64,000 nt of DNA, taken from the NCBI GenBank assembly GCA_024699125.1, contig JAILQE010000004.1, positions 1-64,000 of the forward strand. The letters are read 5' to 3'. The notes beneath the pieces are model-generated. The model was given only the letters and a program-made list of their open reading frames with translations. It made no database searches and was not told where the DNA came from. This document shows, piece after piece, positions 12,124 through 62,634 of this stretch (position 1 is the first letter of the stretch; each line of letters opens with the position of its first letter). Source of the DNA: Candidatus Saccharimonadota bacterium. Its GTDB lineage: Bacteria; Patescibacteriota; Saccharimonadia; Saccharimonadales; Saccharimonadaceae. A program made the position numbers and the translations under genes.

Positions 12124-13470
12124 ATGGATGCTTTGCTAAAAGAAAAACTCAAAAAATTGCCGGCAAGCCCTGGCGTTTATTTTCATAAAGATAAAACCGG
12201 CGAAATTATCTATGTAGGCAAAGCCGCCGTGCTTAAAAACCGCGTGCGCCAATACTTCCAAAACACCAAGAAAGACCCAAAAACCGAGGCTTTAGTTACT
12301 GAAATCAACGACACAGATTGGATCGTAGTGGATACCGAAATGGACGCACTCTTTCTCGAGTCCGAAATGATTAAGCGCTACATGCCAAAATGGAATATTT
12401 TGCTTCGTGACGACAAAACCGTGTCTTATGTGCGCATTAATATGCAAGACGAAGTGCCGCACATCAGCTATACTCGCAACCCGATGGACGACAAGGCCAC
12501 TTATATCGGTCCTTTTTATGGCAAATCTGCCGTGGAAAAATCTGTAAGATTGCTCCGCCGCATTTTCCCGTATTATGACAAGCCATACAATGGCAAAAAG
12601 TCGCTAAATACTGATCTTGGCCTCACTCCTGGCATTGAAGTAGGCAAATGCACGCCAGAAGATTACAAGCGCAACCTGCGTAAAATGATTCGTTATCTCA
12701 AGGGCGAGCGTCAGAATCTTATCAAAGACCTCGAAAAAACCATGTACGACGAAGCCGGCAAAGGGAATTACGAACTGGCCGCCGAAGCTCGCGACCAACT
12801 CGCTGGGCTCAAAGAACTCCGCAGAAAAATCGTCTTCTCGGACAAAGAATTTTTGGATATTTCAAGCGACCAGGCCCTAAATCAGCTGCAATCGCTCCTA
12901 AAACTAGACCACCCGCCACGCCGCATCGAAGGCTACGACATTTCACACCAATCTGGCACCAACACGGTAGCCAGCATGGTGGTATTCATTAACGGTGCCT
13001 CTGCCCGCGACCAATACCGCAAGTTCAAAATCCGCACCAGCACCAGCGACGACCTCAAAAGCATGCACGAAGTCATCGAACGCCGCTTAAAACACACCGA
13101 GTGGGAATACCCAGATTTAATTATCCTAGATGGTGGCGTGACGCAAATCAACGCAGTTTTACCATTGCTTACACCACACAATATTCCAGTAGTCGGGCGC
13201 AACAAGTCCGGAGATCATTCTCGCAATGCGACAGTTAGATTGATAATTCCAGATATTTTGGTTCGAGGGACTTCCGGAGCGCGGCAGCGCGAGGATGAGT
13301 GCGCGAGCCCCGTGGCGACGGGCGCGAGCGACACGGCCCGAGAACCAAAGAGTCTGGAATTATCACCTAGTTCTCATATTTCGAAACTTATCGCCAGGAT
13401 AGACGAAGAGTCTCACAGATTCGCAATCAACTATCACACCCTTTTGAAACGCAAAAACCTCCTCAAGTAA
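12124..13470 (+). CDS. uvrC: Excinuclease ABC subunit C, short form with in-frame palindromic insertion
   Basis: GIY-YIG region LPASPGVYFHKDKTGEIIYVGKAAVLKNRVRQYF; UvrC RNase H-like domain EGYDISHQSGTNTVASMVVF...PDLIILDGGVTQINAV; RIDEESHRFAINYH; TATAAT 6 nt before ATG. Confidence 0.92.
   Translation: MDALLKEKLKKLPASPGVYFHKDKTGEIIYVGKAAVLKNRVRQYFQNTKKDPKTEALVTEINDTDWIVVDTEMDALFLESEMIKRYMPKWNILLRDDKTVSYVRINMQDEVPHISYTRNPMDDKATYIGPFYGKSAVEKSVRLLRRIFPYYDKPYNGKKSLNTDLGLTPGIEVGKCTPEDYKRNLRKMIRYLKGERQNLIKDLEKTMYDEAGKGNYELAAEARDQLAGLKELRRKIVFSDKEFLDISSDQALNQLQSLLKLDHPPRRIEGYDISHQSGTNTVASMVVFINGASARDQYRKFKIRTSTSDDLKSMHEVIERRLKHTEWEYPDLIILDGGVTQINAVLPLLTPHNIPVVGRNKSGDHSRNATVRLIIPDILVRGTSGARQREDECASPVATGASDTAREPKSLELSPSSHISKLIARIDEESHRFAINYHTLLKRKNLLK
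13241..13365. repeat. Palindromic element inserted in frame within uvrC
   Basis: Left arm TGATAATTCCAGATATTTTGGTTCGAGGG is imperfectly complementary to right arm CCCGAGAACCAAAGAGTCTGGAATTATCA; GC-rich core between. Confidence 0.75.
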
Positions 13471-24602: not shown

Positions 24603-25193
24603 ATGGCTGAAATTTCCATTGAACAAATCAAAAAACTTAAAGAGCTCTCTGGTGTTGGCTTGACCGACGCTAAAAACGCTCTCGTTGAAGCCGATGGCGA
24701 CTTTGACAAAGCCCTCGACGCCATGCGCAAAAAAGGCTTGACCAAAGCCGAGAAGCGCGGCGATCGCGAAACCCGCGAAGGTCTCGTCGAATCTTACATT
24801 CACGACGGCCGCCTCGGCGCCATCGTCGAAGTTAACTGCGAAACTTCTTTCGTAGCTAAAACCGATGAATTCAAAACTTTGGCTCACCAAATCGCTATGC
24901 AAATTGCCTCTATGAACCCACTTTACGTGAGCGAAGCAGACATCCCAGAAGATGTTAAAGAAGCCAAAATGAAAGAGCTCGAAGCCAACTTCAAAGGTCC
25001 AGAAAACATGAAAGCTCAAATCCTCGAAGGCCAAGCTAAAAAAGCTTTTGCCGACAAGGTTTTGATGAACCAACCATATATCTTGGACGATACCAAAACT
25101 GTTGAGCAATTCATCAAGGAAGCTATTGCTAAGACTGGTGAAAACATCACCGTTCGCCAATTCAAGCGCATTGAGCTTGGTGTTACTGAATAA
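24603..25193 (+). CDS. tsf: Elongation factor Ts
   Basis: IKKLKELSGVGLTDAKNALVEADGDFDKAL, EVNCETSFVAKTDEF. Confidence 0.96.
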   Translation: MAEISIEQIKKLKELSGVGLTDAKNALVEADGDFDKALDAMRKKGLTKAEKRGDRETREGLVESYIHDGRLGAIVEVNCETSFVAKTDEFKTLAHQIAMQIASMNPLYVSEADIPEDVKEAKMKELEANFKGPENMKAQILEGQAKKAFADKVLMNQPYILDDTKTVEQFIKEAIAKTGENITVRQFKRIELGVTE

Positions 25194-25197
25194 TCTA

Positions 25198-25380
25198 GCA
25201 AGCACCAGTAATTAGTTGAACTAGACTTATAAACTTGTTAAAAACACAGCAATAAGCCGAAATTCAAAAAGCAAAATTGAACCCTCCTCTGGAGGGTTCT
25301 TGCTTTTTTCATTCGGTATTGCTGTATTTTTAACGTTTATAAATCTGGTAAAAGTTCAACTAATTACCGGTGCTTGCCAT
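25198..25380. repeat. Giant hairpin (183 nt) downstream of tsf with terminator-like core
   Basis: AGCAAGCACCAGTAATTAGTTGAACT pairs with AGTTCAACTAATTACCGGTGCTTGCC; inner TTATAAACTTGTTAAAAACACAGCAATA pairs with TATTGCTGTATTTTTAACGTTTATAA; core GAACCCTCCTCTGGAGGGTTC. Confidence 0.85.
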
Positions 25381-25423
25381 ATCTGTCATTTACCCCAAAC
25401 TCATTGACTTAATTTGATTGCAC

Positions 25424-25487: not shown

Positions 25488-25684
25488 TTATAACTGAGCT
25501 CTGGCGGGGAGGGGGTTAACTGGTGAACATTCTGAGCGAACCGGTTTTTTACAGCATTTCCGGACAAAAAACTACGCGGCGTCAGCCGCATTTGTAGTTT
25601 TTTGTTCCGCGAAATGTTGTGAAAAATAAAACCGCGCGAGCGAAGCGTTCGCAAGCTAACCCCCTCCCCACCAGAGTTTATGAT
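25488..25684. repeat. Giant imperfect palindrome (~197 nt) upstream of frr
   Basis: CTCTGGCGGGGAGGGGGTTAAC pairs with GCTAACCCCCTCCCCACCAGAG; inner ACAAAAAACTAC / GTAGTTTTTTGT; core GCGGCGTCAGCCGC. Confidence 0.8.
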
Positions 25685-28147: not shown

Positions 28148-28908
28148 TGAAAAAATTGCTAGAAAAATTTGAGAACTTCCGGAAAAAGCACCCAGTGCCG
28201 AAAAAACTCCGCACGCCACTCGCAATTTTGTCGCTGCTTTTGTGGGTAGCCATCGCCTCAATCGGCGCGCAATATCTTGTGGGTTACCTCTTGCTTTGGA
28301 CGATCGGCGTCGACAGGTTAGGTATCAATACGTTCAACGTGCTTTACCAAGTCATATCCTACGCCGTGACGCTTTTCCTAGTAATTTACGTGCCATACAA
28401 AATCTCCAAAAAAGGCAAAACCACGCGCGAGGAAATCGGTCTCAAAGGCTGGCCAACCTGGACAGACATCTGGCTTTCACCACTCGGCTTTATTGCCGCA
28501 ACACTAATTGCCATGGCTCTCGCCGCATTATTCAGCCTCTTCCCATGGTTTAATGCTGATGAAGCCCAAAACATCGGCTATACCACCTTGCTTTACGGCA
28601 GCGACCGCATCTTCTCGTTTATCGCCACCGCCATCATCGCGCCAATCGTTGAGGAAATCGTGTTCCGCGGCTGGCTCTACGGCAAAATCCGCTCCCGCCT
28701 CAACATGTTCGCCTCGATCTTTATCGTATCGCTACTATTTGGCCTCGTGCACATGCAATGGAACGTAGGCGTCAACGTGTTTGCTACTTCCATCGTGTTG
28801 TGCGCCCTGCGCGAAATGACCGGCACCATCTATTCCGGCATCCTAGTCCATATCATCAAGAACGGTATAGCGTTTTGTCTAGTTTACATAATGGGCATTG
28901 GCTTATAA
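28147..28908 (+). CDS. CPBP-family intramembrane metalloprotease
   Basis: APIVEEIVFRGWLYGKIRSRL, LFGLVHMQWN, multiple TMs. Confidence 0.88.
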   Translation: MKKLLEKFENFRKKHPVPKKLRTPLAILSLLLWVAIASIGAQYLVGYLLLWTIGVDRLGINTFNVLYQVISYAVTLFLVIYVPYKISKKGKTTREEIGLKGWPTWTDIWLSPLGFIAATLIAMALAALFSLFPWFNADEAQNIGYTTLLYGSDRIFSFIATAIIAPIVEEIVFRGWLYGKIRSRLNMFASIFIVSLLFGLVHMQWNVGVNVFATSIVLCALREMTGTIYSGILVHIIKNGIAFCLVYIMGIGL

Positions 28909-29024
28909 GGGCCGCTAAACCACTATTTTTGAGGACCATAAAGACTTGGCCAGAGCGGCCCGCTCGCCGAAGGCGTAGCGAAGCGCCTGCGTGTCCTCAA
29001 GAATAGTGGTTTAGCGGCCCTTTA
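28905..29024. repeat. Long hairpin with ~31-nt near-perfect arms and GC-rich core (copy A of shared-core family)
   Basis: TAAGGGCCGCTAAACCACTATTTTTGAGGAC pairs with GTCCTCAAGAATAGTGGTTTAGCGGCCCTTTA; core CATAAAGACTTGGCC...GCCTGCGT. Confidence 0.9.
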
Positions 29025-62541: not shown

Positions 62542-62634
62542 AAGGGAAACCATCAAATAGTTTTTTCTCGGACCATAAGCTTGGGCGAGCGCCCTGGAGC
62601 GTGTCCGAGAAAAAAGCTATTTGATGGTCTCTTT
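62541..62634. repeat. Long hairpin with shared core (copy B), also terminator-like
   Basis: GGGAAACCATCAAATAGTTTTTTCTCGGAC pairs with GTCCGAGAAAAAAGCTATTTGATGGTCTC; core CATAAGCTTGGGCGAGCGCCCTGGAGCGT. Confidence 0.9.

Follow-up and report, generated by a model that had tools for sequence, protein, structure and literature searches.

A hairpin tip shared among palindromic elements with site-specific stems in Saccharibacteria and Bifidobacterium

Two long hairpins stand out in the 64,000-nucleotide stretch of a Saccharibacteria genome (765,546 bases in 13 contigs) that we call the window, and they raise the question of how two stems of unrelated sequence came to carry the same tip. Hairpin A (28907-29022) separates proS from a gene for a CPBP/Rce1-like protease; hairpin B (about 62550-62627) is flanked by a FemAB gene and a DUF308 gene. 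The paired arms of hairpin A (28907-28936 and 28993-29022, 30 nt each) are 97% complementary, and its predicted folding energy is −75.6 kcal/mol, compared with −36.8 ± 3.8 kcal/mol for dinucleotide shuffles (z = −10.2); for hairpin B the corresponding z is −8.5. Inverted repeats with arms of at least 18 nt occur four times in the real window and not once in ten Markov-random windows. Both tip cores start with GGACCATAA..CTTGG and finish with G(C)GTGTCC, giving a shared core, GGACCATAAGCTTGG...GTGTCC, that is 37 nt long in its standard form and 64 nt in hairpin A; GGACC stands at 28933 in A and 62570 in B, and GTGTCC closes at 28996 and 62606, respectively. The initial annotation had described two hairpins with unrelated arms and the same core ends, and the sequence reads as it was written there; the arm length of 31 nt that it gave for hairpin A becomes 30-31 nt, depending on where the edge is placed. 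We consider it probable that hairpins A and B are copies of small, non-autonomous mobile palindromic elements whose spreading, heritable part is the hairpin tip.

Table 1. Palindromic features of the window discussed in the text.
Feature	Position	Strand	Remarks
In-frame hairpin element in uvrC, second core family	13241..13365	-	Arms 13241-13269 / 13337-13365
Ordinary terminator tip after tsf, arms about 85 bp	25180..25382	+	Sister species differ in arm segments and tip
Nested palindrome between tsf and frr	25499..25676	+	Core 89-92% kept in G175 and G193; arms different
Hairpin A left arm	28907..28932	+	Left edge falls in the CPBP/Rce1-like protease stop codon
Hairpin A tip core, 64-nt variant (AAAGACTTGG type)	28933..28996	+	Additional small hairpin in tip
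Hairpin A right arm	28997..29022	+	End lies just upstream of the proS -10 box
Hairpin B left arm	62550..62569	+	Pairing extends outward to 62541
Hairpin B tip core, standard 37-nt	62570..62606	+	Exact inversion in G193; other core type in G175
Hairpin B right arm	62607..62627	+	One-nucleotide bulge relative to left arm

How widely does this tip occur? The window genome holds four exact-type copies by pattern search and seven by a covariance model comprising the core and 10 bp of arm; the covariation score observed for core and arms was reached by 0 of 500 shuffles. Pattern search found copies in about a third of 35 sampled congeners; the 24 further families sampled from the order yielded none, and its matches in two genomes (G001 and G026) are unlike real elements. 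With the covariance model, 78 of 118 congeners were positive, with as many as 30 copies in a single genome. When GTDB species genomes were scanned for the exact pattern, at least 118 stretches matched, at least 113 of them from Saccharibacteria and at least 5 from Bifidobacterium; the named core carriers among the matches listed are Saccharibacteria MAGs, chiefly from the ruminant gut, and 'Candidatus Nanosyncoccus alces'. Three Bifidobacterium genomes carry 24, 13 and 21 copies, with near-perfect arms of 24-30 bp. The initial annotation had proposed a spreading repeat family with unique arms and a conserved core, to be examined by scanning the genome and its relatives with a covariance model built from the cores. 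Because the genome, genus and GTDB scans yield hundreds of further copies, the hairpins of the window are not isolated cases, and this proposal is strongly supported. A search of the open-access literature turned up no account of elements like these for either Saccharibacteria or Bifidobacterium.

Scans for the core returned 0 matches in viral_contigs and 0 in plasmid records. The lone 'phage' match, MT837054.1 (L415), filed as 'Bacteriophage sp.', is unannotated and contains MurJ, protein-kinase and thioredoxin-reductase-like genes; it looks like Bifidobacterium chromosome filed under the wrong label. We therefore rejected a phage or plasmid carrier. The idea that the arms serve as CRISPR-like guides against phages was also set aside, as 18 Bifidobacterium arms had no match in phages, in 25-nt queries of limited power.

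The arms behave differently from the cores. Among copies that share a Saccharibacteria genome, arms are about 40% identical at any core identity: pairs of copies with cores at least 97% identical have arms that are 43% identical (core-arm correlation 0.09), and one genome (G109) contains sets of three and four copies with identical cores and unrelated arms. Although arms are unrelated between copies of one genome, the two arms of each copy are nearly perfectly self-complementary. No arm termini were common to the Saccharibacteria copies compared, and no direct repeats were seen at the junctions inspected by eye. A weak arm consensus is found beside the core, T-rich in Saccharibacteria and RTATGYGTTGC in Bifidobacterium. 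In the latter genus, gapped alignment gives an arm identity of 60% for the 93 within-genome pairs whose cores match at 94% or more, compared with 59% for all pairs; arms of paralogues resemble one another more than shuffles do (0.45 versus 0.30), the ends GGA ... GGTCAA are weakly kept, and orthologous copies have most of their arms in common between species. The Bifidobacterium pta-ackA gap has the same core with unrelated arms in several species, and a short terminator or almost nothing in others.

Individual Bifidobacterium loci record further rearrangements. Between pta and ackA of G240 (L344), adjacent sequence, copied in inverted orientation, has taken the place of part of the core, likely by a single template-switch event. 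At L399-L401, the core tip, enclosed by arms of more than 30 bp, is interrupted by more palindromic DNA, an arrangement kept in three species; at L385, by comparison, most of the nested element is deleted and part of its left arm is left.

Copies also lie inside genes. We found 37 coding copies, defined as 37-nt cores in long open frames, distributed over dozens of unrelated genes in either orientation, and the two core frames that contain stops are used in 0 of the 37. Judged by protein sequence, the invaded genes include tsaD, queA, lysS, ileS, gyrA, uvrA, uvrB, ligA, priA, metK, tgt and others, with tsaD and uvrC the only identities confirmed against family models. The core encodes at least three different peptides, set by strand and frame, and in both lysS and uvrB the same site is occupied in different species by inserts of opposite orientation. 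In tsaD, three in-frame hot spots have received many different hairpin inserts from several core families; in a TsaD structure predicted from a shallow alignment, the fold is intact and the inserts appear as low-confidence loops. The core of the uvrC element in the window (Table 1) resembles inserts found at 30 further loci, among them tsaD in other species, and the predicted insert peptides, DHKLGRTALSVS and similar, would be carried by TsaD, UvrC and other proteins. A third core family of roughly 120 nt, GGACTTGAA...ACGTCATACGC, is present as two inserts in the single tsaD gene of G078 (L143), with closely similar cores and unrelated outer arms.

Orthologues of the invaded genes have no pre-existing palindrome at the sites of in-gene copies. 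At one tsaD site, distant species have elements alike in both arms and core, beyond the similarity of the flanking gene; arms can thus also travel with the core or be inherited, and some elements either moved by allele transfer or were retained over long periods, with losses. A hairpin-free tsaD locus (L132) contains left-arm-like sequence, which is only suggestive as a trace of inverted flank duplication.

Single sites can be followed through time in two sister genomes, G175 and G193, whose 4-fold sites diverge from those of the window genome by 24% and 22%, respectively. The hairpin A orthologue has the same core in G175, and in G193 has homologous arms around an inverted core of the short type. 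Hairpin B has homologous arms in both relatives, around a core that in G193 is the reverse complement at 37 of 37 positions and in G175 has been exchanged for another type. Elsewhere the core is exchanged in G175 (L004), inverted and of another type in G193 (L305), or unchanged (L069), and it is inverted between retained arms at L316/L387 of Bifidobacterium. At the nested palindrome 25499-25676, both arms have been replaced jointly: they are unrelated in all three species (17-45% identity, no better than shuffled), and each species' arm pair is self-complementary despite the replacement. Because these arms were wholly replaced in the same sister-species pair in which the arms of hairpin A are 96% identical, change in the arms is punctuated.

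Large arms are not confined to this core. The window also contains giant arms around an ordinary terminator tip (25180-25382; z = −13.9) where more distant relatives have only a short terminator, indicating that arm growth is not specific to the hairpin core. Thus, when the initial annotation set the hairpins apart from ordinary terminators, it was right about the core, but the same genome also builds such arms on a terminator tip. Its suggestion that elements are copied with duplication of flanking DNA found no such footing, as orthologous empty intergenic sites in relatives hold neither arm and no matching stem, and an element already in place can have its arms rewritten. Holding neither arm, the empty sites support neither simple fold-back copying of a single flank nor simple inverted duplication of the flank at insertion. 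The genomes compared offer no single recent insertion paired with an intact empty site in a same-species strain.

We then asked whether the elements might be ordinary MITE- or RPE-like remnants, in which the whole palindrome is mobile and the arms simply drift faster, with compensating changes, around a constrained tip. The gradual arm change among Bifidobacterium orthologues, with 14 double compensated pairs, is what such drift would produce; the weakly conserved ends in that genus and the tsaD elements that keep arms and core at a common site point the same way, and Rickettsia palindromic elements (RPE) provide a precedent for in-frame insertion (PMC10969869). However, arm identity does not rise with core identity, cores have been swapped between retained arms, and the arms of 25499-25676 were replaced at 22-24% neutral divergence while those of hairpin A stayed nearly intact. 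We regard this explanation as a serious one that is nonetheless rather doubtful.

Alternatively, the core could itself be mobile and insert at the tips of palindromes already in place, whether terminators or older elements. Some IS elements target REP loops, and insertion of this kind would fit the nested palindromes at 25499-25676 and L399-L401, the exchange of the hairpin B core on retained arms, and the giant-armed ordinary terminator in the same genome. Because it calls for a stem at the site beforehand, it is unlikely in light of the orthologues of in-gene copies, which have no prior palindrome, and of the empty intergenic sites, which have no matching stem.

Movement of REP/REPIN repeats by RAYT (Y1) transposases would be in keeping with short palindromes, clustered at L322, L324 and L382 in alternating orientation, but is very improbable here: only 4 of 116 congeners, and none of the high-copy genomes, have a Y1_Tnp (PF01797) match above cut-off, which refutes a RAYT/Y1 transposase as the general mover. 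We give equally little credence to an immobile, functional structured RNA or terminator with a regulatory tip under selection, which would explain a conserved and covarying tip, the many intergenic copies and the T run after hairpin B, but not presence and absence that vary between close species, translated copies in dozens of unrelated genes in both orientations, or a core that flips freely. The terminator traits of a G+C-rich stem and a T run at gene 3' ends fit hairpin B and not hairpin A, and are impossible for in-gene copies. An Rfam scan of the window recovered only a tRNA at gathering thresholds, with no family above cut-off for the hairpins; below threshold, these drew only generic hairpin microRNA models, far under the cut-off.

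How, then, would a mobile element with a heritable tip come to recur with a unique pair of arms at each site, in frame within genes, and in both orientations? The data show directly that the core recurs, that arms are unique, that insertion is in frame and that cores invert; we infer a moving enzyme and an arm-making step. The core may move as a folded single-stranded hairpin, or strand switching may copy it into other hairpin tips. At a given site, DNA synthesis that folds back or switches templates as it passes through the tip would make or re-make matching arms and flip the core, with template switching keeping arms matched and cores flipping, and fold-back synthesis from a broken or stalled hairpin supplying new arms. 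Template switching accounts for homogenization and inversion, but does not alone account for the origin of wholly new arm sequence. Long palindromes are normally cut (SbcCD). In-gene copies would be expected to survive only where they leave the reading frame open and add their 25-60 residues to a loop on the protein surface.

A stronger form of this reading, which we put forward tentatively, is that the mobile unit is the hairpin tip alone, spreading without its stem between hairpins, genes and phyla while each site makes, and time and again remakes, a perfectly matching stem of its own by fold-back DNA synthesis. If so, the genus would be engaged in continuous palindrome building, enlarging terminators and writing loops into essential proteins. 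To our knowledge, the spread of a tip on one-off stems matches no described DNA repeat. Mobile repeats are defined by what is copied, and here a 37-nt tip is copied while the stem is new, an outcome that the usual models of transposition do not predict. The sister-species series, in which tips are flipped, swapped or kept as stems change, makes the birth, growth and rewriting of palindromes directly testable. In-frame insertion into essential genes of a reduced episymbiont genome provides raw material for new protein loops. That Bifidobacterium has the identical tip indicates that a candidate-phylum bacterium and Actinobacteria have exchanged it, either directly or via a third lineage.

These elements can be compared with several known systems. 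Like MITEs, they are short, non-autonomous, hairpin-forming and multi-copy; MITEs, however, have terminal inverted repeats in common and direct target duplications (PMC10969869). Neither conserved terminal inverted repeats nor direct target duplications were found here, where the conserved part is internal, at the tip, and the inverted arms are variable. With REP/REPIN repeats they share a palindromic, intergenic character and, in some cases, clustering in alternating orientation, but they differ in the absence of a RAYT from high-copy genomes, the lack of a fixed stem sequence and the many coding copies.

Template switching by DNA polymerase homogenizes arms and inverts the spacer between inverted repeats (PMC8604942) and reportedly creates and maintains hairpins (PMC8794818). 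Arm homogenization and spacer inversion are also seen here; known cases, though, involve a few bases or short spacers. In the present elements, a dispersed repeat of 37-180 nt occupies the spacer position, and replacement extends to entire arms of 20-24 bp.

RPE are small palindromic repeats of several families that occur in many copies, in frame in unrelated genes, in reduced genomes (PMC10969869), and the present elements likewise lie in frame in unrelated protein genes, as the coding copies and the tsaD hot spots attest. An RPE, however, is about 150 bp long with a conserved encoded peptide, whereas here the tip alone is conserved and the arms are copy-specific; in addition, cores invert and swap while the arms around them are retained, and members of the family occur in two phyla. 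Because whole-palindrome conservation and a conserved peptide were not found, the arms being unconserved and the peptides several, we do not claim RPE membership. By analogy, they appear to behave like RPE within genes, the closest system in behavior, and like quasipalindromes at the DNA level. What we rate as novel relative to known repeats is that the heritable part is the tip only.
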